Shown one piece after another: positions 5,710-44,230 of a DNA stretch of 64,000 nt. The first letter of the stretch is position 1. Every line of letters begins with the position of its first letter. The stretch comes from a virus. Made by a program: the position numbers and the translations under genes. The notes below the pieces were generated by a model. It was not told the origin of the DNA and made no database searches. It saw only the letters and a list, made by a program, of their open reading frames with translations. The stretch is from IMG/VR virus record IMGVR_UViG_3300042731_000990, positions 1-64,000 of that record. One strand, given 5' to 3'.

Positions 5710-5711
5710 TT

Positions 5712-7249: not shown

Positions 7250-7260
7250 TATAGATAGAC

Positions 7261-26000: not shown

Positions 26001-29000
26001 GTAAACAAGCTATGCAACTCATTACGGAGTATGCAGAAGCTCAGCAAGAAAGATATGCAGAAAAGCAGAAAGAGGCAGAAGCTGAGGCTGCAGAACAGAA
26101 GGCTAAAGAAGAAGCTGCTAAGAAAAACAATGCTACTCCTGAACAACAAGAGAACAACCGTACTGAAAGTGCTAAAGAAGATCTCAAGAAAGAAGATAAA
26201 TCTTTAACAGTTGTTCAAGCATTTGCACAATTAGCTCAACAAAATAAAGGTATTGCTGTATTACTAGCCAATAGAATGGCTTATAATGAAACCCAGCAAA
26301 CACAGGAAGAGTTTTTAAACACCCCTGACGGTGCTAAGATTGTTGCTATTATTCAATCTGTTGTAGAAGCATATGATGTTTCTCAGTCTACTCAACCTAT
26401 TCATATATGGTTAAGAGGTAATGGAGCTGCTCAAAGTATTATTATAGCAGATGCTATTGCTAAGTACTACCCTAATGCAGAAACTTCTGATATTATTGCT
26501 CAGTTGGCAGGGTCTGTAGAAAGACGTGGTGATATTGCTAAAGCTGTAGAAGATATTGAAAACAGCTCTGATGTAATTACTTCTGTTACCAAAGTCTATG
26601 AAGATGCTACTAATGGTTATTATGTAATTGAGATTAAGTCTAACATTGCTGGTCAGAAAAATACAGAATACTCTATTGTAGATGCTTCTGGTGCTCCTAT
26701 TCAATCATTAATGGAGCCGTTAGTAGGAACAGAAGTTACTACTAGTAAAGAAGAAATTATTAATTACTTAAAAGGTTTAGGATCTACAGAGACTGCAACA
26801 ACAGAAACCCCTAAAGGTAAGAAGCCTTTTGTATTTGATGGTAGAACATTATATGAAGGTCAGACACTTTACATTGGTAACCGTAAAGTAACCGTTGATA
26901 GAAATCAAACTGTTGATGAAAACGGTATTGTACAACGTCTTAGAGTAAGAGATAAAAACGGTATTGTTTTAAGAGATGCTATTACAAGCATGTCTGATGT
27001 ACGTGTAGAAGCTCCTGCTAAGATTAGTAACAAAGCTCAAAGGCTTGGTAAATTTACTTTTGGAAGTACTGCTCAAAATAGAAAGCTGTCTGATAAAGAA
27101 TTAACTGAGCTTACTGAAGCAAGAATGCAGATGACTGAAGAAGAGTTCATGCAGTCTTTATCAGTAGAGGTTACTTACAATGCTCAGTATGTACCAGTTT
27201 CTCAAGCCGGTGCTCATACAAACGCTAAGTTTAATGATAAGAATGAGGAGAATCCTCGTATTAAACTTAATGCTGATAGTAGTACAAGAGAACGTGCTGA
27301 GATACAGCTTGTGTTTAAGAATCCAATGACGGGTTCTTCTATTGTTTTGTCTTACTTAAACGATCCTCTTCAATATGCATTCTTAGATAAGTCTGGTAAT
27401 TATGTACCAAACTTTAACGAAGGACTTGCTACAGATTCAGAATTATTCTTTGGAGCTGAAAAGGAAATTGTAGATAGATATAAAAGACATTTGTCTTTAG
27501 TTAACTACTTAGTAGCTGAAGCTCAAAAAGGTAATACAACTTTCTCATTAGACTCTTTAGAAGGTTATGGGTTTAGACTAGGAAACTTTAGTTACAACTT
27601 TGCAACTAAACTTAATGAGCCTAAAGCAGCTTGGGAAGAGGTGGCTTCTAAATTGGGATATTCTCCTACTGACAAGGTTGTCATCTTAGATAGAAAGTTT
27701 ATTAGCGGTACAGCTATTACTGAAGAAAACTTTACTGTTGTTAACGGTGAATTTGAAAAAGGTGAAGCTAAACAGTATAGAGAGGCTTTAAAATCTAACC
27801 CATATGTACTAAATGGTTTAGGTAGATATGTAGCAATTAAACTAGTACCTGGTGCTAAACCGGTTGTTATTGAATTAAGTCCTAAGAATCTTACAGAAGA
27901 AAGGCTAGACACTCTGGTTAATCAGTTAGGTACAAAGATAGAAGACATCCGTGCTAAGCTCGCAGAAGGTAAAGATGTTACTAAAGAGGTTATTGAATTT
28001 AATGATTCTTTTAATAACCAGTTTTATGTGGGTTATACTATATCAGCTGGTTCTAGAGCTCAAAACTTTAATGTAGCTCTTGAAGTTAGGATGAATGGTA
28101 CTCTTAGAGTAAACATATCACCTAACAATATAGGAAGAACTCAGATTGCAGGATTTGATTTCAATTTGAATGCTGCTCCTAAATCATTTGCTGAGTTGTT
28201 GTCAGCTGTTAATACAGCTATAGAAGCTAATAATAATCAAATTAGAAAGCCTCAAAGAGCTGCTCTTTTAAAACCGTTTGATGCTTCTATGTTCTTTGAA
28301 AATATTAACAAAGACTTAGATGCTTCAGATCTTTCTAACTTTAAAACAAACGTAACCGCTTCTCCTTTAAAGGCCCCTTCAGTAATTATTACTCAAGCTA
28401 GTTTAGAAAATTTAGGAGGTATTGAAGGAGTTTCATTAGAAGAGGTTCCAGGCTCTAAAGTAGAATCAGAACCTGTTAATGATCAGTTAGAAGCTTTAGG
28501 TAGTGCTTCTTCACAAGCAAGTATAGAGGCAGAAGCAGAAGGTGAAGTAGAAGCTGAAGTAGAAGTTTCAGGTATAGATCAGCAGATCAACGAGGTTAAA
28601 AAGAAAATAAAGGAAAGAAGAAAAGGTCTTAAGCCTAGTCAGGTTGCTAAGGATGAACAGTTGAAAAAACTACATCAGCAACTAAAAGATCTTAGAGATA
28701 AAAAGAATACTGCTAATAAGGTAGGTAATGACTTTACTTTTGAGAATGAGCAGCAGCTTGAAGATTTCTTAGGTTGGGTACGTGCTGTACTTCCAGATTT
28801 TATTACAGTAGAATCTGTAGATATCATTCGTGATAGAATGGTAAAAGAAGGTATGACTGTTGGTAGGTTCTTTACACAGATCAGACCAGGTGCTAAAGGT
28901 ATTTCTGAACTAGAAGGTGTGATAGAAATCACGAAAGATTCTCCTTTTAAATACCATGAAGCATTCCATGCTGTATTTAGAATGCTACTATCTGATCAAG

Positions 29001-32000
29001 AAATTCAGAAAGTTTTAAAGTTAGGTGAGAAAGAACTTAGGGCAGACCTTAGAAAGAAAGGTATGACAATGGATCAGGCAATTGCAAAGATGGTTAAAAC
29101 ATCTTCATTGTATGATGGTATGTCACGTCAAGAACTTAAAGAAAGATTGATTGAAGAGTTCCTTGCTGATAAATTTGAAGAGTTCAAAAAAGATCCTAAG
29201 AATACTAAGATTAATACTGAAGTTAAATCACTCTTCCGTAAGATTCTTGATTTCTTCATTGAGTTGTTTAATGATTACCCTGTAGATAGAATTACTAGTG
29301 TAGATCAATTATTTAGAACTATTGATTCTGGTGAACTAAAAGGACGTGGTGTTTCTAGCAATCAGTTTACAAGAGACGCAGCCTTTAGTGATAATATGGC
29401 TTATGCTGTGTTAGAGTATACAGAAGATACCGGTGGTACGGATGTAGCCAGATATCTCAATGCTGAAGATTCTCAATACATATTATCTTCTATTACAGCT
29501 CTTGTAGATAGAGCAAGAAGAGAAACAGAAGAAGGTAGTATTGAAGACCTTACTTACGAAGCTTTAGATACAGTATCTAATTTATTTGATAGTGATATTA
29601 AGACATATGAGAACCCTGCATTGCAAAAACGTGCTGATCAGATCTATGATGTTTTAGGTAATCCTGAAGCTATTGCATCTATTGTAGAGTATGTAGAAGA
29701 TCAGATTGCACAGTTTGATGCTGCAGATCAGTTTATGAAAGATAGTTTGGATGCTCTTGAGGATGAGTTTGGTGGTTCAGCTAGAAGTAGTTGGTCTGAA
29801 GAAGCAGAATCAATTGGAGGTCTTACATCTTTGCCAACATTAGTACGTGCAGTAATTGGTACTACTCCTGTTGCAGAGATAGATGCTTTTGGTAATGAGT
29901 TCTATATAGATGCTGAAGGTAATCTTTTAACAGAGCGTATTATTGTAGCTGCTGATGCTCCTACAGTTTACAACGGTTTGGTTAGAATTTTAGCAGACTC
30001 TTCTAGTGATGTAGATATGTTTGAAAGACTACAGGCCCAAAGAGTAATGCAGTCTAAATCTACAAGTAAATCGCAAACTGTTACCTTTATTGACAAGCTG
30101 TTTGACACATTAGGTGTATCTGTATTACCAGATGGGTCTTTAGATCTAAACAATATTAAAAGACCTCAGCTTTTCCAAGCATTTGTAAGAGCCTTTGACG
30201 TAAGTAAAAGAACTTACAACTTTATGGCTATTGATATTAAGTCTGGTAGAGTTGTAACATTTGAGTCCAACAGATCTAATGAAGCTGTAACCCAGTTACA
30301 AACTTGGCAATCTGCTCACGATGCTAATGTAGGTTCTATAACTTCTGATAGTGCTGCCCGTGCTTCTACTATTTTGAATGAAGTTAAAGATGTATTTAAT
30401 GAATCTGAGTACAGTGCTAATGAAGTTGCTGAATTACTTCAAGAGTTTGCTGATATTACCGGTATAGAAATTTCTCCTGCATTTGTAGAATATTCTTATT
30501 ACAAGTCTAGATGGATGGAAGGTAAATTAGATCTTGGTAGTTTAGAAGATCAAGATTTAGCCTTTGTAATTACCAACACAAAGGTTCCAGCAATGACAAA
30601 AGAAGACTTGTCAAATATTGCTAACAGCTTTACAGTAAGTAAAGGACGCCAGTTGTTCTTGAAAAACTTTGAAGACGTTGAAAGAACAGAAGAAAATCAA
30701 GCGTCATTTACAGTAGGTGGTAGATTTAAAGTATTAGCAGAAGGTAATGTGTTCTTTAATGAGAACATTGATACTACTACATTCAACAATGCTAATAATA
30801 AGAAGATTCAAACATATCAAGCTCGTAATGTAATTACTAAAGTTATTCAATCATTGAAAGATCCTGCAGTAAGAGAACGTATTATGAACGATCCTTACTT
30901 GGCAGAGAAGCAATACTTATTGAGTAACGAAGACTTTATGGCTATTATTGATGAGCTCACTACTGAGAACATTGATGGTATTGGTGAAAGAAAATTATCT
31001 AGTCAAGATAAAGAGGCCTTTGGTAGCACAGATAGAGGTAGAGTATACAAGGGTATGACACCACGTGAGTTTATGACTCAGCAGTTATTTTCTTATACAA
31101 GTAAGATGAAGTCTGTTAACGGTGTTATTACTGTACCTACTTTGATCAGAATTATGGAGGCTTCTAGTCAAGGTATGACTGTAGGTCTACCTATTACAGA
31201 TGCTGTTGAGTATAACTTTAAATCAGAAAATGGTTACGAGTTTACTGATAGTTATTTAGATGCTATCATTACAGAGGTTGAAAGAGACTTGGCTAGAATT
31301 ACTAGAGTTGCCGCAGAGATTGATGACCCTAGAGTTCCACAACTAATGAACTACCACAACGGTGCATTAAGAGGTTTAAAACTAGGTGAAACAGGTGATC
31401 TTATTTCAGAAGAGCTTAAACAAAAGCTTGAAGAAAAAGCTCAGAAAGGTGAAGATATTAGTGTTGCTGATGCTAAGAAACTTAGAAAAGAAATTGCTGA
31501 AGGTTTAAATGCTCAGTTTAATTTATATAAAGATAAACTTGCTAACGAGGGTATTCTTGCAGAGTCTGTGACACTGCGTCAAATGTTACCGGGTTATGCT
31601 CCTACACAAGGTTCTTCTGCTGTAGTATCTGTAAAGAAAGGAGCTTCACTAGAACTTGTAGCTCATTCTAAAGATGAAGGTAAAGCTGTTAGAGATAAGA
31701 AACTATCTCATAATATTGCTCAGTATTTCTTTAATGATTACTTGAATACACTTGCTATTAACCAGTTGGTTACAGGTGATCCTGCTGAATCATTTAAAGG
31801 TCCTATTGATATTGTAAAACGTGCTAAAGGTTATAATGTTTCAGGTATCAAAGCTGCTCATAGCATTGTTCCTGCAGATCCTAATCTGGGTATTACAAGC
31901 ACGTTTGATCAGTTAGGTGACTTAGAGCATATTACATTTGAAGATGATGCTTACACAGACGGTCAGTTTGCTGATAAACAAGATCGTGATGATGGTCAGC

Positions 32001-35000
32001 TTTACATGAGTGTAAAAGGTTTACGTCATGTATTGTTTGGTATGGGCCGTCTTACACAGTTTCAAGCTAAAGTTTTAAATAAACTAGAAAATGGTCAAAA
32101 GCTAACAGATGCTGAGGTGTTTGGTGCTTTTGGTAAGAAAGGTTCTGTACAATTCAATGCTCAAACAAACTCATTGAAGTTAGTATATTTTGACGGTAAG
32201 AACTATTTGAAAATGTCTGCATTCTTACTTACCCCAGAGTTTGTAGATAGAATGTCTGGTAATGGTTTAGAAGGTGGTAATAATTTCTTGGCTAATCTTC
32301 TTAATAAGATTCAATTGAGAGAAGCACAGCAAGGTAATGTTGTATTTGCATCTCCTGTGTCTGCATCTAAAGGTAGAAAAGCTAACGTTATTCCAAGAAC
32401 TGGTATTACTAGTGGTAATGAATTATTAGATTCTAAATATTTCAATCCTTTAGATCCTAACTATTTATACTTGTCTACGGAAACTCCGTCTAATAAACTT
32501 AAAATTAACAACCCTACTCAGATGAGACATATAATCTTATCTGAATTAGATGGTGGTAAAAAGGTATATGTAAACGGTCAGGAGACTACAGTAGATGCTT
32601 TACGTAAAGAGTACTTACAAAATGATAAGTCTATTCTTACATCTAGATATTTAGACAAGCGTAAACAACTGTTTGATCTGGAGGATTTCCAGAATGAAAT
32701 TAGAAAATCTAGAAATCTTAAGCAGGTTACTCCTAAGCTTGAAGAGTTTAGAGAGTATGTGGTTGAAACATTAAAAGGTTTGGGAGCATCTCCTCAAGAG
32801 ATTGCTGTATTTAAAGACAATACTATTGATCTGAATAACCCAATCACCCTAGAAAGATTTGAGCAATTTGTTCTTTCTATGTTTAACAAGACTGTTATAC
32901 AAGATAAGTTACCTGGTTACAAGCTTACACTTGTTTCTGATTCTGGTGTTAAGGTTATTAGAAAAAGAGGTACAGCTAAAGAAAATGGTACTAGTGTAGA
33001 CAGCGTTGTTAGCTATGAGTTCTTTAACAAACTTTCTAAAGAGGAGCAGGATAGCGGTGATTATTACATGGATGACTTGCGTTATGGTGTAGAAGAGTAT
33101 GGTAAAGATGGTAAGACTGTAATAGGTACTTACTCTGAAATGATGATGCCTCCTCACAAGAAAGACGCTATGGGTCTAAACGGTGAGGTTACAGAAAGTG
33201 GAATGTTTGGTGTACGTATTCCTTCACAGGATAAACACTCTGCAATTAACTTAAGAGTTGTAGACTACTTACCAGCTCATTACGGATCTGTAGGTATATT
33301 CCCTAAAGAACTTGTAGAACTATCTGGAGCTGACTTTGATATTGATTCATTATTTGTACATAGAAAAGAATTCTATAGAGATTCAGCAGGTGACGTTAAG
33401 TTCCACGGAGAAGGATCAGAACAAGATAGATTTGAAGCTTATTTAAGATTCCTTGCTAAGACTAACTCAGATGTTAAACAAGGTCTTCAAGATGGTAAGT
33501 TAAATGCTTTTGTAGCAGATGTTCTTGATGAAGTTGTAGAAGAGGTTGAATATACTTTAACAGATATTAAGACTGCAGCTAGAGAAGCTGGTCTACCTTC
33601 TACTCTGAAGGAATATAACAAAGCGGTTAAAGAAAATAATAATGTAGACATTAACTTGTTTGCAGTGCAAAACAGACAACTGGATATTAAGATGTCTTTG
33701 TTAGGCAATAGTATCATGGAACCTGCTTCTTTGAAAGCTTTTGAGAAGTTTGCTGACTATTTAAAAGAGAACGCTCCTGAGTATTACAATAAACTACAAG
33801 AGCAAAGACGCTTTATTAATAATGCGTTGGGTAAGGCTGAGTCTTTCTTTGATATTCATGAAGGTGCTGAAAACATTGGACCTGCAGTTAATACAGCTAT
33901 TGCGTATGCTTTCTTAAACACAATGGGTGTCTCAGCTACTGATGCTGCATTTGAAATTGATGGTGTAGAGTACAAATCATTCAATAATACAGAAGCTACT
34001 GATGGTTCACGTATTATGGATAACCTTTCTACTCTTATTACAGCAATGACGGATAACGCTAAAGAACAGTTAGCAAGTAAGTATGGTTTGAATATTGAAG
34101 CTGTTGGTCAGTTTGCGTACATGTTGTCTTTAGGGGTACCTTTTAATAAAGCGTTGTTGTTATTCCAGCAGCCTGTTGTTAAGGAGTTCTTTAGAAGAAC
34201 AGCAAATGCTAGTTCTATTCTAAACTTTAATAGTGATGGTAGCCAAAAACAAATGGCTAATCTTACAGCTACTACATTTAAAGAACTAGAAATGACTTTA
34301 GGAGAAGCTTCTGAAGTTACAGAAGAGATGATGGTTAAAGATCTTTCTTTGACAGAGACTTTTGCAGATTTGGTTAAAGATGAAGATGCTATAAACTCTC
34401 AAGCTTCTGTATTAGCATTGTTTAAAAAGATATATACACAATCTCAAACGATGAGAGAGCTGGCCTCTGTTGTTAAAGTTGGTGCTGGTGTGGGTCAAAC
34501 AATGGATCAGTTTGATTACAAGAATGATTCTTACAATAAGTTTGTAACTGAAGATACACTTGAAGAGATTAAGAAATCTGGTTTCCCTGTAGAAGGTTTA
34601 AAAGAAGCTATTGAGAATCATAGTATCATACAGACAGAAGCTGAGATTAGAAGAGAACTAGATGTACTATTTAAATCTTTGTTTGTTAGCAAGGCTCCGT
34701 TAGTTAAAGCTACAATGGAATCTATTGAAAGTTCTCTAAGCACTTCTAGAACAGGTTATGGAAAAGCTAAGAAGCAAGCTCTAAATGATTTCTTAGGAGC
34801 CTTATTAGTTAAAGCTTATAAGACCGCTAACTCTTCTAACAGTAGAGTACTAAAGAATCTTAGTAACGGTTTGATTTATGAAGATCTTAAAGCTAGTCAA
34901 CCTAATGTAGAAAGTGTAACAGAGATTGTAGGTTCACTGAGAAGACACTTGAAAGCTGCGGGTAAAACTAATAAGTTCATTCAGCAGTATGTGTTCTCTA

Positions 35001-36598
35001 TTCCAGCTATTAATCCTGATGGTACAGCTTCTAAGAGTAAAGGTGTAAACCAGCTTAAGTCTAATTCATTTACTAAGCTTTCACCAGAACTAGTTCAGAG
35101 ACTAGAAGCTGAAATGGCAGAGTTGCTAAGTGACGATACTGTATTAGATAATGGTTCTACTGTTAGAGATAACACTTTAGATCTAATTCATTACTTACTG
35201 GTAAAGGATGGTCTTCAGTTTAAATCAGGTAGTTTCTTACGTAGTGTACCTGCTGAAGCTTTATCTCAAATCTTTAGTGTAAATACTAGAGTTATTGAAG
35301 CTGTTAAATCTGCTGAAAGCTTTGAAGAAATAGGTTTGAATGTCTTTGGTGAGAACAATAGTGTTCGTGCTATTATGGCTGAGTTCCTATTAAACTGGGG
35401 AGAGCATGCAGCTAGCACACAGCACCTACGTTCTATATTTGATCCAGCAAAACAAAAAGTTTCTAAGAATCTTATTGAAAAGAAAAAAGAAGTAGGTTCA
35501 AGAGTTTTTGAATTTGTAGAATCAGATGGAGATGCTAAAGGTGTTCTTAATATTTCTTTATTCAATGATTATGCAAAAGATAAAGACTTTGCATTTAGAA
35601 TGGATTTGATACGTAACGCTAATTTTGAAGTCCAAACTACTGTTACAGAAAAAGGTACCCGTCACAATGTTGTATTCCCTATGTATATTAAGATAGGTAG
35701 AGATGTATACAAATTACGTACTTGGCAACGTAGTGAGTCTGGTACTGAGCCTTTATATAATGAAGAGACTGGTGAAGTATTAGGAACTACACAAGTAGAG
35801 AAGGGTGTTACTAGAACAGTTACAGCAGAAGGTATATCAGACTTTTTAGTATCAGAAAAGAGAGCTAATGGTGACTTTAAAATTAAAGGTAATCAAGCTC
35901 AGTATGTTAAGGTTACTAAAAAAGGTGAAGCCTCTCAGAACTTTGGTGGTGCTTATGCTTTAGGTGCTATTCCAGATTACAAAGCTCCTGAAGTTCCTAC
36001 AGAAACAAAAGGTAAACCTGCTAAGCCAGAAGAAACTGGTAAAGGAGTTAAATCTACAGCACCTTCTCAAGGTAATGCATGGACGTTAACACAAGATGAA
36101 ACAGGTGCAACAGTAGATACTACTGAAAAGTCAACTGTTATAGAAGGTCTAAGTGAAGAAAGTCCAGCTGCTGAAATAGTTACAGAAAAAAAGGTACCTA
36201 TTGATAAAGCACTTGAAATGTCTTTGCGTCAATATGGTTATATTTACCAAGAGATTAAAGATGGTAAGTACTATCTTAATGATGTAGTAGGAGGTCCTAC
36301 AGTTATAGAAGAATCTAAGTTTAACTCTTGGTTTAGCAGTCTTGAAGCAAATCGTCCACAGCAGTTAGAAAAAGCTTTAGGTGATATGTTTGAGCAGATG
36401 AATCAAGCAGCTCAAAAGAATGCAGCATCTCAGGGTTTGACACCTGCAGAGATGAAACAAAATCTAGAGAATGCTACAGGTTCTGAAATATCTACAAGAT
36501 CTGGTTTTATTAGTACTATGAAAACATTACTATCTATTCCAGGTGTAGAGATTAATCTTGAGGATATCTTTGATAGAATCCAAAGTTGTTACTTATAA
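23033..36598 (+). CDS. Giant virion protein: zincin-like protease region and DFDID RNA polymerase
   Basis: 4521 residues in one uninterrupted frame. The N-terminal part has hydrophobic segments (about 160-215) and long coiled coils (about 660-1060), then an acidic Glu/Ala tract (about 1834-1846) and another coiled coil (about 1850-1893). At 1975-1979 is HEAFH, the HExxH zinc motif of metallopeptidases, followed about 66 residues later by EEFLAD, a possible third ligand. The C-terminal half carries RIPSQDKHS, then GADFDIDSLFVHRK with Asp3434, Asp3436 and Asp3438, the metal-binding DFDID signature of the crAss-type single-chain RNA polymerase related to cellular beta' double-psi barrels (phi14:2 gp66 is the studied member). 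It is probably packaged, ejected and active early in infection. Whether the protease cleaves this polyprotein is inference. Confidence 0.85.
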   Translation: MDLNLPGGVQQNTEPEKTTPSSNDTYSIFSKGVQANLGTYEGTALDPAKPLFTEYADQPFGLYETNYFRYANRSSFDRLGFSPFVDNEAIYNADASWYGEIGRGIRGAVALTGVSALDTLRSTGDLLRGDWESFISPDTSTALEFSDIMSRYGSTKGGATGFIANNLISTGFVTGMVLGSIPEYAAEALITAEAGGVGAFAGIANTGRKIFSGLRTADKALDAVKAGRKASTVLNQAGKSQKAAGAFARVLKQQADNIINVGGNKVVNMLNPFGNTTDFLVDMARAAKAGEALPSLAKGSGAMLRDMSLFKAAMTEATLEGGFTSNEVRDRAIAEFTEKNGRRPNEDELAQIQDAANLAGHRNVMGNLPVVLLTDKMVFEPLMKMGRTTSRVFGYNPVSSNLASRGIRNVDGTFTSKKISGANFKETMKLRSKAAIKGLLSPSGYVRRGKAVLKAGAGEGIQEVFQEISGGVFEEEGLETARTGRTNFLFNSYADNYKNLVEDPSQMPFWSMSGYLGDNVMKQFSGQGVETFLSGLFIGGLVGGGGSKLTKLMSLSTAKGRANYQAAKAEQDSLTEDLVNILNENIKDPFALFNPRVKNHIQAKELLKEQTEALLAGDFKKAKDIAEELRFNHLSTALQTGTYDIFKSKLEEMRQLDDAGISEATGIENANEARERLEESISYAESLKERYDQANKKFTNPFNPTAYNPNTEEYNRNKINYLAFEDARRDYIFLAESADKTQERMQNLRSEMGASGITSNWSAADVDSLTSVANLNREIGLLEEEILVGKGAQTEEEKKLLNEKKAKLKSLKSYKSELDKYINLVTKLETDSSPAADARREKAYEALKAKFSNYVNTINEASENPQEISQETLDNVFDSIVDHHLLEKDYAIASRSLNILNNPAALTELALRKAAIAEDVFVNRRKHIRKSVKTFKEKLGSNLDILNRLKGLGVVIPHDQLEAFIEKGEMPTELFSLYNGGEINLTKGKGKQAMQLITEYAEAQQERYAEKQKEAEAEAAEQKAKEEAAKKNNATPEQQENNRTESAKEDLKKEDKSLTVVQAFAQLAQQNKGIAVLLANRMAYNETQQTQEEFLNTPDGAKIVAIIQSVVEAYDVSQSTQPIHIWLRGNGAAQSIIIADAIAKYYPNAETSDIIAQLAGSVERRGDIAKAVEDIENSSDVITSVTKVYEDATNGYYVIEIKSNIAGQKNTEYSIVDASGAPIQSLMEPLVGTEVTTSKEEIINYLKGLGSTETATTETPKGKKPFVFDGRTLYEGQTLYIGNRKVTVDRNQTVDENGIVQRLRVRDKNGIVLRDAITSMSDVRVEAPAKISNKAQRLGKFTFGSTAQNRKLSDKELTELTEARMQMTEEEFMQSLSVEVTYNAQYVPVSQAGAHTNAKFNDKNEENPRIKLNADSSTRERAEIQLVFKNPMTGSSIVLSYLNDPLQYAFLDKSGNYVPNFNEGLATDSELFFGAEKEIVDRYKRHLSLVNYLVAEAQKGNTTFSLDSLEGYGFRLGNFSYNFATKLNEPKAAWEEVASKLGYSPTDKVVILDRKFISGTAITEENFTVVNGEFEKGEAKQYREALKSNPYVLNGLGRYVAIKLVPGAKPVVIELSPKNLTEERLDTLVNQLGTKIEDIRAKLAEGKDVTKEVIEFNDSFNNQFYVGYTISAGSRAQNFNVALEVRMNGTLRVNISPNNIGRTQIAGFDFNLNAAPKSFAELLSAVNTAIEANNNQIRKPQRAALLKPFDASMFFENINKDLDASDLSNFKTNVTASPLKAPSVIITQASLENLGGIEGVSLEEVPGSKVESEPVNDQLEALGSASSQASIEAEAEGEVEAEVEVSGIDQQINEVKKKIKERRKGLKPSQVAKDEQLKKLHQQLKDLRDKKNTANKVGNDFTFENEQQLEDFLGWVRAVLPDFITVESVDIIRDRMVKEGMTVGRFFTQIRPGAKGISELEGVIEITKDSPFKYHEAFHAVFRMLLSDQEIQKVLKLGEKELRADLRKKGMTMDQAIAKMVKTSSLYDGMSRQELKERLIEEFLADKFEEFKKDPKNTKINTEVKSLFRKILDFFIELFNDYPVDRITSVDQLFRTIDSGELKGRGVSSNQFTRDAAFSDNMAYAVLEYTEDTGGTDVARYLNAEDSQYILSSITALVDRARRETEEGSIEDLTYEALDTVSNLFDSDIKTYENPALQKRADQIYDVLGNPEAIASIVEYVEDQIAQFDAADQFMKDSLDALEDEFGGSARSSWSEEAESIGGLTSLPTLVRAVIGTTPVAEIDAFGNEFYIDAEGNLLTERIIVAADAPTVYNGLVRILADSSSDVDMFERLQAQRVMQSKSTSKSQTVTFIDKLFDTLGVSVLPDGSLDLNNIKRPQLFQAFVRAFDVSKRTYNFMAIDIKSGRVVTFESNRSNEAVTQLQTWQSAHDANVGSITSDSAARASTILNEVKDVFNESEYSANEVAELLQEFADITGIEISPAFVEYSYYKSRWMEGKLDLGSLEDQDLAFVITNTKVPAMTKEDLSNIANSFTVSKGRQLFLKNFEDVERTEENQASFTVGGRFKVLAEGNVFFNENIDTTTFNNANNKKIQTYQARNVITKVIQSLKDPAVRERIMNDPYLAEKQYLLSNEDFMAIIDELTTENIDGIGERKLSSQDKEAFGSTDRGRVYKGMTPREFMTQQLFSYTSKMKSVNGVITVPTLIRIMEASSQGMTVGLPITDAVEYNFKSENGYEFTDSYLDAIITEVERDLARITRVAAEIDDPRVPQLMNYHNGALRGLKLGETGDLISEELKQKLEEKAQKGEDISVADAKKLRKEIAEGLNAQFNLYKDKLANEGILAESVTLRQMLPGYAPTQGSSAVVSVKKGASLELVAHSKDEGKAVRDKKLSHNIAQYFFNDYLNTLAINQLVTGDPAESFKGPIDIVKRAKGYNVSGIKAAHSIVPADPNLGITSTFDQLGDLEHITFEDDAYTDGQFADKQDRDDGQLYMSVKGLRHVLFGMGRLTQFQAKVLNKLENGQKLTDAEVFGAFGKKGSVQFNAQTNSLKLVYFDGKNYLKMSAFLLTPEFVDRMSGNGLEGGNNFLANLLNKIQLREAQQGNVVFASPVSASKGRKANVIPRTGITSGNELLDSKYFNPLDPNYLYLSTETPSNKLKINNPTQMRHIILSELDGGKKVYVNGQETTVDALRKEYLQNDKSILTSRYLDKRKQLFDLEDFQNEIRKSRNLKQVTPKLEEFREYVVETLKGLGASPQEIAVFKDNTIDLNNPITLERFEQFVLSMFNKTVIQDKLPGYKLTLVSDSGVKVIRKRGTAKENGTSVDSVVSYEFFNKLSKEEQDSGDYYMDDLRYGVEEYGKDGKTVIGTYSEMMMPPHKKDAMGLNGEVTESGMFGVRIPSQDKHSAINLRVVDYLPAHYGSVGIFPKELVELSGADFDIDSLFVHRKEFYRDSAGDVKFHGEGSEQDRFEAYLRFLAKTNSDVKQGLQDGKLNAFVADVLDEVVEEVEYTLTDIKTAAREAGLPSTLKEYNKAVKENNNVDINLFAVQNRQLDIKMSLLGNSIMEPASLKAFEKFADYLKENAPEYYNKLQEQRRFINNALGKAESFFDIHEGAENIGPAVNTAIAYAFLNTMGVSATDAAFEIDGVEYKSFNNTEATDGSRIMDNLSTLITAMTDNAKEQLASKYGLNIEAVGQFAYMLSLGVPFNKALLLFQQPVVKEFFRRTANASSILNFNSDGSQKQMANLTATTFKELEMTLGEASEVTEEMMVKDLSLTETFADLVKDEDAINSQASVLALFKKIYTQSQTMRELASVVKVGAGVGQTMDQFDYKNDSYNKFVTEDTLEEIKKSGFPVEGLKEAIENHSIIQTEAEIRRELDVLFKSLFVSKAPLVKATMESIESSLSTSRTGYGKAKKQALNDFLGALLVKAYKTANSSNSRVLKNLSNGLIYEDLKASQPNVESVTEIVGSLRRHLKAAGKTNKFIQQYVFSIPAINPDGTASKSKGVNQLKSNSFTKLSPELVQRLEAEMAELLSDDTVLDNGSTVRDNTLDLIHYLLVKDGLQFKSGSFLRSVPAEALSQIFSVNTRVIEAVKSAESFEEIGLNVFGENNSVRAIMAEFLLNWGEHAASTQHLRSIFDPAKQKVSKNLIEKKKEVGSRVFEFVESDGDAKGVLNISLFNDYAKDKDFAFRMDLIRNANFEVQTTVTEKGTRHNVVFPMYIKIGRDVYKLRTWQRSESGTEPLYNEETGEVLGTTQVEKGVTRTVTAEGISDFLVSEKRANGDFKIKGNQAQYVKVTKKGEASQNFGGAYALGAIPDYKAPEVPTETKGKPAKPEETGKGVKSTAPSQGNAWTLTQDETGATVDTTEKSTVIEGLSEESPAAEIVTEKKVPIDKALEMSLRQYGYIYQEIKDGKYYLNDVVGGPTVIEESKFNSWFSSLEANRPQQLEKALGDMFEQMNQAAQKNAASQGLTPAEMKQNLENATGSEISTRSGFISTMKTLLSIPGVEINLEDIFDRIQSCYL

Positions 36599-36608
36599 AT
36601 AGAATACA

Positions 36609-39600
36609 ATGGCTAAAGTTTGTTTTAATAAAAACCTAGAAGAATACAAAGAACTCCAAGGAGTCTATGGTTCAGATCTTATTGTAGATGCGGTTATAGA
36701 ATCTTATCAAAAGATAAAGAAAACAGACGCATATCCTTCTGTTGAAGACGTAGCAGCAATGCTTAATGACAAAGGTCAGGTAGTTAAAATGGATCCTGTA
36801 AAAGCTAAATTATTTAAAGCTGCTGGAGATTCATCTCTAAATCCTCAACAACGTCAAGTTGTACAGGATCTAGCAGAGTTCCACTTAGATGTAAAGTTTG
36901 AAGAAGAGGGTCATAAGTATACTCATGTAGGTAGTGGTAAGCAATTAGATTCTACTACTACTTTAATGAAAGGTACCTTGGACGACATGGGTCAATATGC
37001 TGTTAATAGACGTATTGGTAATTTGTTTGATAGAATGCTTGAGGCTGCTATACTAGGTCAATCCCTTGATTCAGTAAGTCTTGTATTTAGAGAAGAAGGT
37101 AAAGACGTTAGTCTGGTTATTGAAGATTCATTAAAAGAAGAAATCTGGAATTGGGCTCAGGATGTTGTAGCAGATTTACAAGCTGAAGGTTCTGTAGTTA
37201 TACCACAGTTCCGTGTAAGTAGTGAAAAAGATAATGTAGCAGGTAGTATTGATATACTCGTAGTTAAAGCTAACGGTGAGTTGGAAGTACTTGATCTTAA
37301 ATCTTCTAAGAATTCTATTACTAGTGAGAATTACATTACCCCATATCCTCTTAAAGCTTCAGATAATACTAAAGGATACAAAGGTTCTAAGATTGCAGAT
37401 GAGTTAGGTGGTGATCAATACTTAAGCACAGAACAACAACATGCTTTACAAACGGGTCTTTATGCCCGCATGTTAATGAACAAAGGTTTTGTAGTATCAA
37501 GAACAGCATCTTACCATGTTAAGTATAAAATGAATGACGATGCTACTACAGCTGTGGGATTTGATATAGAAGGTTACAGAGAGCATAATGCTGAAACTGA
37601 CATGAAGACTTATGCTGATGTAATTGTTAAGCTGGAAGAAAGTAATCAGACAGTAGATCAAAGTGGTCAGTTATCTAGAGAAATGGGTGAAGATGGTAAG
37701 CCTGAGATAGACGTTGAAGATGATGGAGTTAAGATAAATCATTTTGAACTTGCTCTTCTTATTAAGGAAAAGATCTACACACCTTTATCTCAAAGACTGA
37801 AAACTTTACAAGATCTTTATGATAAGCGTGTAAACATTACAGATCCAAAACGTAATCTATTTGTACCTAAGCAAGCAGAAACCATTGATGCTCTAGCAGA
37901 TCTTCTTTATATGATAGATAAGGAAGGTAAGACCGGTAAATCTTTATTGGCTTATGGTCGTTTTATGAACTATGCTATTAAAGATGTAAACAAGTTTATA
38001 GAATACGTAGGTAACGATAGTAATTTAAATAGAGAAGTAACAGCAGGGGTATTACAAAACTTTGGGATGTTCTTAAAAAGTTATGAATCTATATTGGCTG
38101 ATACAGCTACACTAGATAAATTATTACCTCCAGAACAGTTGTCAATAGTTAGTAAGCTTAAAGACAAGTTAGCAGAAGGTAGAGAAGTTTTTGAAGCTTC
38201 TAAAAAAGAGTGGCTTATTAGAAGTATTCAAAGTGGTACATCTCAAGCACTTACAAGAGAACAGATAGAAACTGCTCTTAATGAAGCTCAGGATATAGGT
38301 AGAGGTGAAGCTTTCTTAGGTGATCTTACTACAAGTACTGATCTTATCTTAAGACTTATAGATAAGAAGTATAAGCAGCAACGTATTGAAGCTGATGATG
38401 AAGCTGCTAAATTTAACGCTCAAGTAGATGAGGCTATAGCAGATCTTGTAAGACTATCTCCTACAGAACTAGGTGGTAGTAAAGCTAAAGTTGATTACAG
38501 CTTTATGTATGAAGAAGTAAACGGTGAAGCATTAATTATTGACAGATTAGGATCTAATTATACTCAAAAACTTCAAGAGCTTAAGTCAGCTTTATATAAT
38601 GAAGATGGTGATTATATTCAGTATAGAGAAATAACTGATGTCAACAAGGCTTCTCAAGATGATATAGATCATAATAAAAGAGTATTTGAAGCACGTAAAA
38701 ATTATAGAGAGTTTTTGAATGCTGAGATTATTGAGAAAGGTCAGGTAAAAGACGGAAAAGATCACAGATATACAGCTGAGTTTAAAGCTGAACGAGCCAA
38801 GTATGAAATGTTAGTTGGTAAACGTTGGGTTAAAAAGGTTGGAGTTAGTGATTATGCATATAGAAGATACCGTAATAAATACTATAATGTTCTTTCTGAT
38901 ATTATCGTTCCTGTTAAAAACTCTAAGGGTCAAACTACAGGAGCTACTAAACGTGTTTCTATTGAAGTAGTGGATCGTAAGTATGTAGAAGCAAGAGAAG
39001 TTAGTGCTGATGGTGTTAACTACTTAAATCCTGCATACGAGAAGCTGATGAATCCTACAACAGAATTAGGTAGAGCTCAAAAGAAATTTTATGAGTTTTA
39101 TATAAATGAGTGGGTGGGTAAGAAGTTATCAAGTCTACCTAATGAGTATGAAAGTTTCTTAAAACATAGAGTTCCTGTACTTGAAGATCATGTAAATAAC
39201 TTTGCTAATCTACCGGTACCTTTAAGAGTGATAGCTAAAATAGGAAAGTCTTTGTATGACTTTTTTGCAGATTGGAGTTTACCTGTACCTCAAGTCAAAA
39301 GAACAAGGCTTGATGAAAATGGAGATATTGTAAGTGCAGTACCTTTATTTATTCCTGGGTTTAGAGGAACAGCTTCTGAACAAAAGCTAAAAGATCTTGC
39401 TGAAGCTAAGGCAAAGGCCCGTAAAGACATGTTGGATGGTAAAATCACACATGATCAGTATAGAAAGATTAAACGAGATATTAAAGATCAAGAGAAACGT
39501 ATAGAAAGAATGCCTAAAAAGGCACGTACTGATGTAAATATAGCAGATGCTATGAAAGCTCAGAATGCACAAGTGTCTTATTACAATCACATGACACGTC

Positions 39601-41129
39601 TTGAAGATACTTTTGCAATATTTAAACAGGCTGCAAAGGATAGAAGTTACTATTCTAGATCTCAAACTCAAGCTGATGGTACAGAAAAAAAAGAATTTGT
39701 AAAGCCTGAAGAAGTTAGAGCTACTAAACGTTTAGATAAGTGGTTTAAAATGACTTATAATAAAGAGAACTACTTTGATAATATGGACGGAGGTCAACGT
39801 AGAATGGAAGTAGGTGTACGTAAGTTATTACAAGGTTCTTCTCTTTTGTATGTAGGTCTTAGCCCTATTGCTAACGCTTCAAACTATATTTGGGGTAGAG
39901 TGTCAACTGTTTTAGAAACTGCCGGTGGTAGATACTATAGTAGAAATGCTATGACTAAAGCTGTTAGTCTATATAATACAGAGTTTTTAGGTGGAGTTAT
40001 GCTTAAGACTATGAAAGGTTTTGATAAGCAGTTTAACTTTAAATCTAATCAGTCTATGTCTAAGTATGAGGCTCTGGCTAATCACTTTAATATGGCACGT
40101 CAGCTTATGGCTGGTGAAGAAAGATCTGATGCTCCTATACCAGGTGCTTATAAGTTGCAAGATTCTGCGGAATTTAATGTCCAGTCTAAAACTGGTATGG
40201 CTATTCTGTTATCACAAACTCTTAAGGATCAAAACGGAACTGAAATGAATGTTTATGATGCTTATGATTTTAATCAGGAAACAGGTGAAGTTACTTTGAA
40301 ACCAGGAGAGTGGACACTTATAAAAAGAGATGATCAAGGTAATATAACTGAAGAAGTATCTTTTAATTCTACAGAGAAAGCTAATCTTCAGAATTACATT
40401 TACGAGGTTAACAAGCAAATGCATGGTAACTATGCAGAAGAAGATAGAGCTGCTTGGCAAGATAATACATTTGGTACTCTAGCATTCCAATTCCATAAAT
40501 GGGTTTATCCAGCTTATAAAGCTCACTTTAAACGTAGATACTATGATGAAAACTTAGGTTACTATGAAGGTCGTGTAGTAAGTTTAATAAACTTTGGTCG
40601 TGCTATACGTGATTATGGTAGCTGGGCTGAAGCTGTATCTGCAACAGATGAACTTGCTAAAGCTAATATTAGAAAGTTAGGAGCTCAGCTAACAGTCATT
40701 GTAAGTACATTCATTATAGCTAATATTTTGAAAGGTATAATGAAATCTGTAGGTGATGATGAAGATGAAAATAAATTTATAAGACGTAATCTCAACGCAT
40801 TAAGTTTCTTAAATGATAGATTACAAGGTGAGGCTATGTTCTTCTTTAATCCTTATGAGTTAGCTACAGCTGCAGAGAGTCCTTTTGCTTCTAGTAGATA
40901 TATCAAAAACTTGTGGGATGCTTTAAGTACTACTGCAATGTCTGCTTACTATGGAATAGTTCAAGACCACGAAGAGCTTTTAGATAATAAGAATGTATAC
41001 TATCAAAAAGGTAGTAGAAAAGGTAAGCTTAAACTTGCTAAAGAGTGGGGTGATGTTATACCAGCTCTTTATCAGATAAACAGATACAAAGCCTTTGATA
41101 CAGTCAGTAAAGACTACAGAGCTAATTAA
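36609..41129 (+). CDS. Giant virion protein with N-terminal PD-(D/E)XK nuclease domain
   Basis: 1506 residues. Residues about 75-330 form a RecB/Cas4-like PD-(D/E)XK nuclease: GSIDILVVKANGELEVLDLK supplies Asp215, Asp229 and Lys231, and QQHALQTGLYARML the downstream Q-x-x-x-Y motif. The rest is long and helical with strongly basic stretches (about 945-985), a hydrophobic stretch at about 1073-1110 and a probable transmembrane helix at about 1357-1379 (AQLTVIVSTFIIANILKG). The combination of nuclease and membrane-active C-terminus in a late virion gene suggests ejected cargo that may act on host DNA or at the membrane. It is the last gene of the late block and ends right at a strong terminator. 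Confidence 0.75.
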   Translation: MAKVCFNKNLEEYKELQGVYGSDLIVDAVIESYQKIKKTDAYPSVEDVAAMLNDKGQVVKMDPVKAKLFKAAGDSSLNPQQRQVVQDLAEFHLDVKFEEEGHKYTHVGSGKQLDSTTTLMKGTLDDMGQYAVNRRIGNLFDRMLEAAILGQSLDSVSLVFREEGKDVSLVIEDSLKEEIWNWAQDVVADLQAEGSVVIPQFRVSSEKDNVAGSIDILVVKANGELEVLDLKSSKNSITSENYITPYPLKASDNTKGYKGSKIADELGGDQYLSTEQQHALQTGLYARMLMNKGFVVSRTASYHVKYKMNDDATTAVGFDIEGYREHNAETDMKTYADVIVKLEESNQTVDQSGQLSREMGEDGKPEIDVEDDGVKINHFELALLIKEKIYTPLSQRLKTLQDLYDKRVNITDPKRNLFVPKQAETIDALADLLYMIDKEGKTGKSLLAYGRFMNYAIKDVNKFIEYVGNDSNLNREVTAGVLQNFGMFLKSYESILADTATLDKLLPPEQLSIVSKLKDKLAEGREVFEASKKEWLIRSIQSGTSQALTREQIETALNEAQDIGRGEAFLGDLTTSTDLILRLIDKKYKQQRIEADDEAAKFNAQVDEAIADLVRLSPTELGGSKAKVDYSFMYEEVNGEALIIDRLGSNYTQKLQELKSALYNEDGDYIQYREITDVNKASQDDIDHNKRVFEARKNYREFLNAEIIEKGQVKDGKDHRYTAEFKAERAKYEMLVGKRWVKKVGVSDYAYRRYRNKYYNVLSDIIVPVKNSKGQTTGATKRVSIEVVDRKYVEAREVSADGVNYLNPAYEKLMNPTTELGRAQKKFYEFYINEWVGKKLSSLPNEYESFLKHRVPVLEDHVNNFANLPVPLRVIAKIGKSLYDFFADWSLPVPQVKRTRLDENGDIVSAVPLFIPGFRGTASEQKLKDLAEAKAKARKDMLDGKITHDQYRKIKRDIKDQEKRIERMPKKARTDVNIADAMKAQNAQVSYYNHMTRLEDTFAIFKQAAKDRSYYSRSQTQADGTEKKEFVKPEEVRATKRLDKWFKMTYNKENYFDNMDGGQRRMEVGVRKLLQGSSLLYVGLSPIANASNYIWGRVSTVLETAGGRYYSRNAMTKAVSLYNTEFLGGVMLKTMKGFDKQFNFKSNQSMSKYEALANHFNMARQLMAGEERSDAPIPGAYKLQDSAEFNVQSKTGMAILLSQTLKDQNGTEMNVYDAYDFNQETGEVTLKPGEWTLIKRDDQGNITEEVSFNSTEKANLQNYIYEVNKQMHGNYAEEDRAAWQDNTFGTLAFQFHKWVYPAYKAHFKRRYYDENLGYYEGRVVSLINFGRAIRDYGSWAEAVSATDELAKANIRKLGAQLTVIVSTFIIANILKGIMKSVGDDEDENKFIRRNLNALSFLNDRLQGEAMFFFNPYELATAAESPFASSRYIKNLWDALSTTAMSAYYGIVQDHEELLDNKNVYYQKGSRKGKLKLAKEWGDVIPALYQINRYKAFDTVSKDYRAN

Positions 41130-41472: not shown

Positions 41473-41724
41473 ATGATGTTTAAAAAATTAAAATCAAAGC
41501 TTATGGCGTTTGCTGATATCTTTAAAGATGAAAATGATTACAATGAAAAGACTATTATTGGTTTTATGTCATTTGCTGTTATGGTAATTTTTGCTGTAGT
41601 AGATCTTGTTACTGGATACGTAGGTAAAGACCTCGTAATTAACGAAGGGATCTATAACAGTTTTGTTATAATCACTCTAGGTAGTTTTGGTATTGCAGGC
41701 CTAGAAAAATTTGCTAAGAAATGA
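41473..41724 (+). CDS. Holin candidate, two transmembrane segments
   Basis: 83 residues. A charged amphipathic N-terminus (FKKLKSKLMAFADIFKDEND) is followed by two hydrophobic helices at about 30-52 (IGFMSFAVMVIFAVVDLV) and about 60-78 (YNSFVIITLGSFGIAGL), with a basic end (EKFAKK). Size, topology and its place directly before a cell-wall-type gene match phage holins. The next gene starts 4 bases before this stop (ATGA overlap), giving translational coupling. No sequence family is certain. The first two codons are both ATG; either may start. Confidence 0.65.
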   Translation: MMFKKLKSKLMAFADIFKDENDYNEKTIIGFMSFAVMVIFAVVDLVTGYVGKDLVINEGIYNSFVIITLGSFGIAGLEKFAKK

Positions 41725-42191
41725 AATTAGAAGTAGTAAGAATCAGCAGTCAAGAGGACAGCACAAACGGAATTTTATTTGATGTTACAGAAGGAAGAAA
41801 GTTTTTATGCTACACTCTTGAAGATGAGTATAGGGAAACAAAAGTTATGTCTGAAACACGAATTCCTGCTGGCACATATAAAATCACTCTTAGAACGGTA
41901 GGAGGTCACCATGAAAGATATACTAAGAAATATGGTGAAATGCACAAGGGCATGTTATGGGTACGTGATGTGCCTAATTTTAAGTGGATCCTTATTCATA
42001 CTGGTAATACTGATGAACACACTGCTGGGTGCCTCCTTGTTGGTGATAGTCAACAAAACAATGCTATCAAGGCTGATGGTTTTGTTGGTTCAAGTACTCA
42101 GGCGTATAAAAGAATTTATCCTCCAATTGCTGCAGCTTTGGAAGCAGGAGAAGAAGTAACCATTACTTATATAGATTACGATACGGTATAA
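41721..42191 (+). CDS. DUF5675-like protein, putative lysis enzyme
   Basis: 156 residues. The pattern RIPAGTYKITLR (about 47-58), WVRDVPNFKWILIHTGN (His93) and TAGCLLVG (Cys104) matches DUF5675, in which a His and a Cys sit as in L,D-transpeptidase-like folds. The family is common in phages of Bacteroidota; its biochemical activity is not, to my knowledge, settled. Location one overlap downstream of the holin candidate suggests a role in lysis, perhaps cutting peptidoglycan cross-links. There is no signal peptide, so export would depend on a holin. The domain assignment is good; the lysis role is inferred. Confidence 0.7.
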   Translation: MKLEVVRISSQEDSTNGILFDVTEGRKFLCYTLEDEYRETKVMSETRIPAGTYKITLRTVGGHHERYTKKYGEMHKGMLWVRDVPNFKWILIHTGNTDEHTAGCLLVGDSQQNNAIKADGFVGSSTQAYKRIYPPIAAALEAGEEVTITYIDYDTV

Positions 42192-42209: not shown

Positions 42210-42344
42210 ATGGCAAAACACATTAACAATGCTAAGTTGACAACCTCTAAGAAACGTAGACCAGGGGTGCATGCTAAAACTAAAACTAGTAAAAGTAAAA
42301 ATTCAGCTAATTACAAAAAGAAGTATAAGGGACAAGGACGATGA
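42210..42344 (+). CDS. Small basic protein, 44 residues
   Basis: An ATG at 42210 opens 44 codons ending with TGA at 42342-42344, overlapping the next start (ATGA). It is very basic: KKRRPGVHAKTKTSKSKNSA, then NYKKKYKGQGR at the C-terminus. I have seen near-identical GVHAKTKTSK...YKGQGR peptides in other Bacteroidota phages, so it is likely a conserved phage gene and not chance. The composition suggests nucleic-acid binding or a virion internal protein, but no function is known to me. Confidence 0.7.
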   Translation: MAKHINNAKLTTSKKRRPGVHAKTKTSKSKNSANYKKKYKGQGR

Positions 42345-42553: not shown

Positions 42554-42738
42554 CAGACTGGACAAGCACACGTATGGTTTATTTATTAATGTCAGCTATG
42601 TTGTTTATAGCATGGTTGTTTAATTCATGGAACCTTGTGGGGTTTGTAGTAGTCATGTTAAATGTAAGTGTTTGGACTAGATTCTGTCCTAGTAAGTGGA
42701 TCTTTGAAAAGCTAGGCTTTCAAAAAACAGATCTGTAA
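42496..42738 (+). CDS. Small membrane protein resembling YgaP-like DUF2892
   Basis: 80 residues. A short helical N-terminus precedes two hydrophobic segments at about 28-45 (VYLLMSAMLFIAWLFNSW) and about 47-62 (LVGFVVVMLNVSVWTRF), then CPSKWIFEKLGFQ. The arrangement LVGxxxxxxxxxxxxCPxxxxxxxLG is characteristic of the YgaP-like transmembrane domain (DUF2892). It immediately precedes the histidine kinase, with TAATG overlap at 42736-42740, so a role as membrane partner or input of the kinase is possible; that is inference. Its start lies inside the preceding gene; a later ATG at 42574 would remove the N-terminal helix only. Confidence 0.6.
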   Translation: MEKILSKIKSSLLGYVESITDWTSTRMVYLLMSAMLFIAWLFNSWNLVGFVVVMLNVSVWTRFCPSKWIFEKLGFQKTDL

Positions 42739-43640
42739 TGAGTGTTTTAGATGGTATATCTATCAGAAGTAGAATATGTCTACTCTGTGCTACTTTGATT
42801 ATGCTGACTTTTTTTGTCTTTAAAACACTAGTAGTATTTCGTTATATACATCACAGTACTTTTACTCATTACTTTGAGTGGTTATCTGTTATTGCCTTTA
42901 TGCCTCCTTTCTTTGTAGTTGTCAAAGAATTTTTAGAAAACAAGGAGATCATAAAACAAGATCTTGGTAAGAAGAATATATATCTAGAACATGCAGCAAA
43001 AATCATTAGACATGATATGCACAGTGGTATCAATACTTACTTACCAAGAGGGATTAAGTCCCTTAACCGCAGACTTACTGAAGAAAATATTAAAGAACTC
43101 AAAATTGGATCACCCCTCAAATTAATAGCAGATGGTTTACACCATGCTCAAAAAGTATATGCAGGAGTTTATGAGTTTACAAACTTAGTTAAAGAGAACG
43201 CACAGTTAAATACCAAACCGCATAATATTAAAGAGATATTAGAAGACTACCTAAGACTAACAGCATATAAAAATCAAGTTGTCTTATCGGACAACTTACC
43301 ACAAGGTTTAGAAGTAAATGAAGCTTTGTTTTGTACAGCTTTAGATAACTTTATAAGAAACGGTTTAAAGTATAATGACGCTGGTACAAAGTATGTCAAG
43401 ATATACTTAGAGGCTGATTACCACAAAGGTTCTTTTATATGTGTAGAAGATAATGGCAGGGGTTTAACAGGTGAAGAGTTTATGGAACTCAGTAAACCTT
43501 ATGCTAGGAAAGAAGGTCAGAAAGAATCTGGCACAGGATTGGGATTAAATATTTCTATTGAGATTTTAAGAGAGCATGGTTTTATAGTACATGCTGATAA
43601 GATAAAAGAAGGTGGTACAAAAATTTATATAAAGATTTAG
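42738..43640 (+). CDS. Phage-encoded sensor histidine kinase
   Basis: 300 residues. Two transmembrane helices at about 13-34 and 45-63 are joined by a loop of roughly ten residues, so there is almost no extracytoplasmic sensor, and no PAS, GAF or HAMP is seen. The phosphoacceptor is His92 in IIRHDMHSG. The ATPase has all boxes: N box ALDNFIRNGLKYND (Asn204, Asn208), G1 VEDNGRGL (Asp238-Gly242) and G2 GTGLGL (265-270). It should autophosphorylate and pass phosphate to the receiver encoded 3 bases downstream. Such a kinase is rare in a phage; acquisition from a host is likely. The signal may come through the membrane helices or the small membrane protein upstream. Confidence 0.9.
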   Translation: MSVLDGISIRSRICLLCATLIMLTFFVFKTLVVFRYIHHSTFTHYFEWLSVIAFMPPFFVVVKEFLENKEIIKQDLGKKNIYLEHAAKIIRHDMHSGINTYLPRGIKSLNRRLTEENIKELKIGSPLKLIADGLHHAQKVYAGVYEFTNLVKENAQLNTKPHNIKEILEDYLRLTAYKNQVVLSDNLPQGLEVNEALFCTALDNFIRNGLKYNDAGTKYVKIYLEADYHKGSFICVEDNGRGLTGEEFMELSKPYARKEGQKESGTGLGLNISIEILREHGFIVHADKIKEGGTKIYIKI

Positions 43641-43643
43641 GAG

Positions 43644-44081
43644 ATGATTGATACATTGATGCTGATAGATGATGAGAATCTATTTCACTTGGTATTTGAA
43701 GATGCCTGCAGCATGTTAGATATAGCTTTATCTATTGAGGCTTTAGATAGCTCTGATGAAGCAGATAAGAAGTTTAAAGCTTGGTTCCCTGATGATCCTG
43801 ATCATGAAAGACCACAGTGTGTCTTTGTTGATCTTAACATAATTGGATCTTCATACGATGGTATAGAAATGATCCGTAAAATAAATGAAGATTATGGTAA
43901 CGGATGTGTTATTGGTATTATTTCTAGTAGTAGTGATCAGTCAGAGATTGAAAAAGCAAAAACAGTAGGAGCTCAGTTTTGGATTATTAAGTCTGATGAC
44001 ATTGAACCAAGACTAGAAGAGTTTAAAGAAGATTATGAGGGGTATATAAATAAGACAAACCCTTTTAAAGTATATAGATAA
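43644..44081 (+). CDS. Stand-alone response-regulator receiver domain
   Basis: 145 residues forming one CheY-like receiver and nothing more. The acidic pair Asp9/Asp10 (LMLIDDEN), phosphoacceptor Asp63 (VFVDLN), Ser94 (GIISSSS) and Lys116 (WIIKSDD) are all in place. There is no DNA-binding or enzymatic output domain, so a phosphorylated receiver would have to act by protein contact or as a phosphorelay intermediate. It is encoded directly after the kinase and should be its cognate partner. The stop overlaps the next start (TAATG at 44079-44083), linking it to the lipoprotein gene. Confidence 0.9.
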   Translation: MIDTLMLIDDENLFHLVFEDACSMLDIALSIEALDSSDEADKKFKAWFPDDPDHERPQCVFVDLNIIGSSYDGIEMIRKINEDYGNGCVIGIISSSSDQSEIEKAKTVGAQFWIIKSDDIEPRLEEFKEDYEGYINKTNPFKVYR

Positions 44082-44230
44082 TGAAGAATGTAATAAGGTT
44101 TGCTCTAGTGGTATATGCAATAATTGCACTTACCAGTTGTAGTAAAAGTTATGAAACAGGATATGTAACTAAAGGTAATCCTGATAACAGTTACCTGGAT
44201 ACATGTGAAATATACTGCTGCGGTGATTAG
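44081..44230 (+). CDS. Small lipoprotein, 49 residues
   Basis: ATG at 44081 overlaps the receiver stop. The N-terminus is a lipoprotein signal: MKN, a hydrophobic stretch VIRFALVVYAIIAL and lipobox LTSC with Cys20. The mature part is only 29 residues with four more cysteines (TCEIYCC near the end). After processing it should be a tiny lipid-anchored peptide in the inner or outer membrane. Too short for homology inference. Surface exclusion, lysis timing or a signal for the kinase are possibilities; none is shown. Its end overlaps the following gene by 26 bases. Confidence 0.65.
   Translation: MKNVIRFALVVYAIIALTSCSKSYETGYVTKGNPDNSYLDTCEIYCCGD

Follow-up and report, generated by a model that had tools for sequence, protein, structure and literature searches.

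A three-gene cassette encoding a histidine kinase (HK), a stand-alone receiver (REC) and a coiled-coil membrane protein (M) was found in a crAss-like phage, and its products probably act as one signalling pathway in which M is the membrane output. A fuller reading, held tentatively and clearly short of even confidence, is that HK-REC-M may be a virus-specific mobile phosphorelay, serving as an envelope or energy sensor in lytic phages of aquatic bacteria and controlling lysis or its inhibition at the membrane, transcription-free, via a new class of receiver-gated effector with two transmembrane (TM) segments.

The window analysed is a stretch of 64,000 nt from IMG/VR record IMGVR_UViG_3300042731_000990, the full record being a virus contig of 68.5 kb. 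A crAss muzzle protein is encoded in the window (Pfam PF25731, 4.6e-23), together with a 1506-aa protein (36609-41129) weakly similar to crAss-phage proteins, some of which are annotated as RNA polymerase. Crassvirales phages were among the matches of both proteins, by which the carrier is identified as a crAss-like phage. A replication-type set (DNA polymerase, primase, helicase and a Sak4-like protein) is also present, and no capsid or terminase genes were found within the window. The isolates closest by muzzle protein include Cellulophaga phages, Flavobacterium phages and Leptolyngbya phage Lbo-JY46; the hosts are probably Bacteroidota. Two further large reading frames were observed, one of 4521 aa (23033-36598) directly before the 1506-aa frame, and one of 1432 aa (11997-16295) with SLT transglycosylase, LysM and DUF5872 domains, which is probably a virion protein.

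Table 1. Genes at and around the cassette, with positions in the window.
Feature	Position	Strand	Basis
Candidate holin, small membrane protein, 83 aa	41473..41724	+	Homologues in 22/115 loci
DUF5675 protein	41721..42191	+	Pfam DUF5675, 1.2e-26; phrog_1501 (unknown function)
Small 2-TM YgaP/DUF2892-like membrane protein, 80 aa	42496..42738	+	PF11127, weak (0.012, below cut-off)
HK: PAS-less, intramembrane-type sensor histidine kinase, 300 aa	42738..43640	+	Pfam, AF2, alignment
REC: stand-alone receiver, 145 aa	43644..44081	+	Pfam Response_reg, alignment
Lipoprotein gene, 49 aa, lipobox LTSC	44081..44230	+	Sequence read
M: presumed output protein, 188 aa	44223..44789	+	Linkage to REC, AF2

The initial annotation had set the kinase and receiver between holin/DUF5675-like genes and a lipoprotein/phoH set; that order is seen (Table 1), but M was overlooked, and the lipoprotein gene actually lies between REC and M. 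It overlaps both the REC stop and the M start, and is regarded as an insertion rather than a core member because most relatives have no gene there. The M start overlaps the REC stop in most loci, whereas the window has the lipoprotein gene inserted instead; here M probably starts at the GTG at 44223, with an upstream alternative at 44205. The stop of the small YgaP-like gene overlaps the HK start in the window, and a homologue stands immediately 5' of HK in 55 of the 115 loci with distinct REC sequences; its product, for which no LiaF profile match was obtained, is a candidate accessory sensor partner of HK. The 83-aa candidate holin matched no holin profile in Pfam or PHROG, and the DUF5675 protein is a candidate envelope or lysis enzyme. 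A very basic 44-aa protein (MAKHINNAKLTTSKKRRPGVHAKTKTSKSK...) is encoded at 42210-42344, 5' of small membrane protein genes. The order holin-like, DUF5675, 2-TM, HK, REC, M, phoH recurs in four contigs from different metagenomes (L004, L006, L007 and L008), and a chimeric host contig is ruled out by its being kept across independent metagenomes. Promoter-like sites were no commoner in a scan than in shuffled sequence; terminator-like sites exceeded those in shuffles, none falling cleanly between genes.

HK was recognised by its HATPase_c domain (Pfam PF02518, 4e-12, 47 bits against a cut-off of 26.4), with no match to HisKA-type or other DHp families in Pfam. Its H box, RHDMHSGIN, is an unusual one by sequence and marks a DHp variant. 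In an alignment of 50 kinases, H92, N208, D238/G240/G242 (G1) and G265/G267/G269 (G2) were invariant, and the H box, G1 and G2 were intact in 207 of 224 HK reading frames, a set that includes redundant loci and fragments. Two hydrophobic segments were evident by sequence, and the AF2 model (pLDDT 88) consists of TM1 (9-33), a 7-residue loop, TM2 merging with DHp helix 1 (41-112), DHp helix 2 (124-149) and then the CA domain; Foldseek matched this model to HK853, ZraS and CpxA at about 1e-9. A histidine kinase with His92, N box, G1 and G2, as initially annotated, was thus confirmed by Pfam, alignment, AF2 and Foldseek. Intramembrane-sensing kinases are characterised by two TM helices and a linker of fewer than 25 residues (PMC4388633), and the HK of the window, which also has no sensory domain, belongs to this kind. 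The minimal external sensor first remarked upon therefore holds for this kinase with its 7-residue loop, but represents only one variant, as about half of the kinases have PAS. The latter was recognised between TM2 and DHp in 37 of 79 non-redundant kinases of relatives (Pfam 1e-12 in examples), and other versions carry GAF-PAS-PAS sensors. Two complete kinases precede one receiver in L183, L194, L179, L185, L197, L199, L216 and L249; the second kinase of L183 and L194 begins with what looks like a signal peptide and lies beside a small exported protein. In L041, L045 and L047, an insert of ~70 aa separates the G2 box from the final ATPase-domain strand.

REC matched Response_reg (Pfam, 1.3e-7, 32.2 bits against a cut-off of 30.2), and D9, D10, D63, S94-S96 and K116 were invariant among 64 diverse receivers; having the DD, D, T/S and K residues and no output domain, it is a single-domain response regulator. 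Pfam and this alignment agree with the earlier description of a stand-alone receiver with Asp63 and Lys116, encoded 3 bases from the kinase. The lack of an output domain was likewise borne out, but the linked M probably provides the output in trans. REC is on average the most conserved cassette member, with conservation of 0.96 in alpha1, 0.89-0.96 in beta5-alpha5 and a minimum of 0.61 in alpha4, the pattern that a conserved docking face would be expected to show. HK and REC make up a complete and plausibly functional two-component system (TCS), encoded in one operon with candidate lysis genes, and between its members we infer phosphotransfer.

M was modelled by AF2 as a small N-terminal domain (FIEGNFVKLL...RRKRLDITKQVQ), a helix of ~110 residues continuing into TM1, and TM2. 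The long helix is a coiled coil, two hydrophobic segments are evident by sequence, and TM2 (STWSNLFGILLTNSFSIVGTIMGVKYA) is the most conserved part. No family scored above cut-off in Pfam or confidently in PHROG, no PDB match was found for the fold, and sequence search gave weak coiled coils only; no holin family was matched in Pfam or PHROG, and no resemblance of M to known holins, antiholins or effectors was seen. A role as an HPt phosphotransfer protein was rejected for want of a conserved His, none being invariant or nearly so among 61 M sequences. In L098, a Bacteroidetes chromosome, positions 5709-9090 encode a kinase with three PAS domains, a phage-type receiver, and the M N-domain fused to a second HisKA/HATPase kinase. 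This fusion after REC points to M as the target of the receiver, and indicates that the N-domain is signalled to by REC and hands the signal on to the part joined to it, the kinase in L098 and the membrane hairpin in phages. M could also be a membrane tether rather than an effector. A membrane protein of ~165 aa with a coiled-coil-like tail was observed between REC and M in L143 (5440-5943); similar slots occur in 17 loci, the inserted protein having no family match.

Kinase-regulator pairs had been thought rare in phages, a view that does not stand, hundreds of environmental contigs, both crAss-like and T4-like, carrying one. Scans of IMG/VR returned 18 contigs with HK as query, and 530 and then at least 563 matches with REC (overlapping counts); the carrier contigs reach 298 kb, and 322 kb in one case. 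HK and M were each present in 113 of the 115 loci, in the order HK-REC-M on one strand, and a divergent REC query of IMG/VR yielded 56 loci, all 56 with the HK-REC-M set. When the M N-domain alone was used, 33 viral loci were recovered, with REC directly upstream in 32 of them. Four REC-M loci (L238, L243, L244 and L256) were without a recognisable kinase within ~3.5 kb upstream; their kinase may therefore be encoded elsewhere or come from the host. Neither REC nor M had a match in INPHARED (50,697 phages), in which HK retrieved generic kinases only, and REC had none in plasmids. A scan of all GTDB genomes with exact peptide patterns gave two carriers, L097, a phage-like contig binned with a genome, and the chromosomal L098. 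Profile searches of 395 Bacteroidota genomes, and of 390 genomes of the same order, each yielded a single carrier of the cassette, in both cases the genome of L098, the only cellular homologue found in the GTDB pattern scan and the Bacteroidota profile samples. A host-derived chromosomal pair common in Bacteroidota was rejected on these counts, and the cassette seems to belong almost only to viruses.

Among 31 carrier contigs, the crAss muzzle was present in 8, the T4 gp23 capsid in 10 and both together in none; the pair, which the initial annotation had suggested seeking in crAss-like genomes, was found there. In the HK+REC tree, crAss-like and T4-like carriers are interleaved, and supported branches require several lineage changes, so the cassette is transferred horizontally among phages. 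The REC of the window shares 82% with that of a T4-like carrier, L017; the isolates closest to the T4-like carriers by capsid are Flavobacterium phage immuto, Microcystis phage Mel-JY01 and Rhodothermus phage RM378. Pairwise dN/dS was mostly 0.02-0.10 for REC, 0.04-0.13 for HK and up to 0.25 for M, a few pairs being left unscored as too close or saturated, which indicates that all three genes are under purifying selection. Between L012 and L017, the kinase is nearly identical (dS 0.09) and REC and M stand at dS 0.7, a contrast that points to recombination inside the cassette.

It is proposed that the two TM helices of HK read the envelope or membrane state, to which other versions add cytoplasmic PAS or GAF-PAS. 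HK would autophosphorylate at H92 and the phosphate would then pass to D63 of REC, whereupon REC~P would dock on the N-terminal domain of M; the coiled coil would relay the change to the conserved TM pair, with an effect on the inner membrane or on a partner located in it. In carriers with adjoining lysis genes, the timing or inhibition of lysis might in turn be set by the envelope, the energy state or superinfection. Lysis control is considered the likeliest use, at a confidence a little short of even, with superinfection exclusion, host rewiring and defence ranked below it.

Sensing of the membrane to time lysis had been raised in the initial annotation, and finds support in part of the carriers: a holin-like or endolysin-type gene lies near the cassette (-5 to +3.5 kb) in 32 of the 71 loci whose upstream sequence extends for 5 kb or more (by set, 24 of 37 and 8 of 34), but the association is not universal, the other 39 having none. 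The nearby enzymes, encoded upstream on the cassette's own strand, are unrelated in kind, comprising Amidase_2 with PG_binding_1, GH19 with PG_binding_1, and an endolysin-PHROG-like family. Homologues of the candidate holin adjoin an Amidase_2 endolysin in several loci, and the holin match among the relatives' loci was weak (0.003). PG_binding_1 was located near upstream in some carriers and tens of kb off in others, and lysis context is missing in several large T4-like carriers; since the endolysin is distant in some carriers, lysis linkage is not claimed for all.

The endolysin or holin genes close to the cassette in nearly half of the loci would be unexpected if it served superinfection exclusion or immunity, an unlikely reading in which HK would sense the envelope disturbance caused when another phage adsorbs, and M, switched by REC~P, would stop DNA from entering or cause local depolarisation. 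Similarity to known exclusion proteins is also wanting (no significant PHROG function), although a membrane sensor with a membrane output and no transcriptional one, transfer across unrelated phages, and the signal peptide and periplasmic region of some second kinases would all suit such a role. Host rewiring, to which a low probability is likewise given, would have REC compete for host kinases or bind a host target (for example in gliding or secretion control) with M only anchoring it. The standing of REC as the most conserved member, the four loci with no evident HK nearby, and the host-type chromosomal version in L098, which feeds a second kinase, would be in keeping with this; against it stand the linkage, in 113 of 115 loci, of a dedicated kinase whose unusual H box is invariant, a conservation of TM2 exceeding the need of a mere anchor, and the near absence of host homologues from the Bacteroidota samples (395 and 390 genomes). 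That the kinase detects infection by a rival and M then disrupts the membrane to kill the cell, as an anti-phage defence or abortive infection moron, is very doubtful: the cassette is mobile, with varied sensors and a coiled-coil membrane protein, but PADLOC gave nothing beyond one weak PglZ match (4e-4) from one M coiled coil, nearly all surveyed chromosomes and the plasmids lack it, and M is deeply conserved rather than diversifying. Sporadic host-derived genes are common in phages, but passenger or decaying genes without function were rejected, at negligible probability, by the dN/dS values (mostly 0.02-0.25) and by active sites invariant across strongly diverged phages.

The proposed HK-REC-M relay shares with canonical TCSs (HK853/RR468, CpxA) the kinase fold, the catalytic boxes, the receiver active site and the adjacency of cognate genes, and differs in its unusual DHp, its output-less receiver, its third membrane protein and its almost wholly viral distribution. 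CheY and Spo0F are single-domain response regulators whose output is by protein docking; REC is likewise a receiver only, whereas its presumed target, M, is a coiled-coil two-TM protein without known family. Two TM helices, a linker of fewer than 25 residues and a candidate accessory membrane protein gene, the last in about half of the phage loci, are common to the window's kinase type and to intramembrane-sensing kinases and LiaFSR (PMC4388633, PMC7191749). Unlike in LiaFSR, the phage receiver is single-domain and not DNA-binding, M is not LiaF-like, half of the kinases add PAS, and the hosts are probably Bacteroidota, not Firmicutes. The agr genes of C. difficile phage phiCDHM1 include a histidine kinase, with no response regulator reported in the phage (PMC3901668); both kinases reside in phage genomes, the agr locus being host-derived quorum sensing. 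In pelagiphages, histidine kinases, sometimes two, lie in a curli (T8SS) cluster and are shared between phage families, and no paired receiver or M-like gene was noted beside them (PMC9599517). The cREC domains of jumbo phages are also receiver-like, but are stated never to occur in histidine-kinase systems (PMC7824862), whereas REC is a classical receiver nearly always beside a kinase. No published description of the HK-REC-M cassette was found in the open-access literature, in agreement with the earlier statement that no such pair was known to have been described in crAss-like phages. All elements of the cassette except M are of known kinds.

Lytic phages are usually thought to follow fixed timetables, with few sensory inputs such as T4 lysis inhibition and arbitrium peptides. 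If the relay is truly at work in hundreds of crAss-like and T4-like phages, many aquatic phages would sense and decide by phosphorylation. The findings also add an unassigned protein family (M) and a DHp variant to the known repertoire, and account for a group of genes that turns up repeatedly, without annotation, in viral metagenomes. By means of the cassette, the phage may sense the right moment for acting on the host envelope, such as the time to lyse it.
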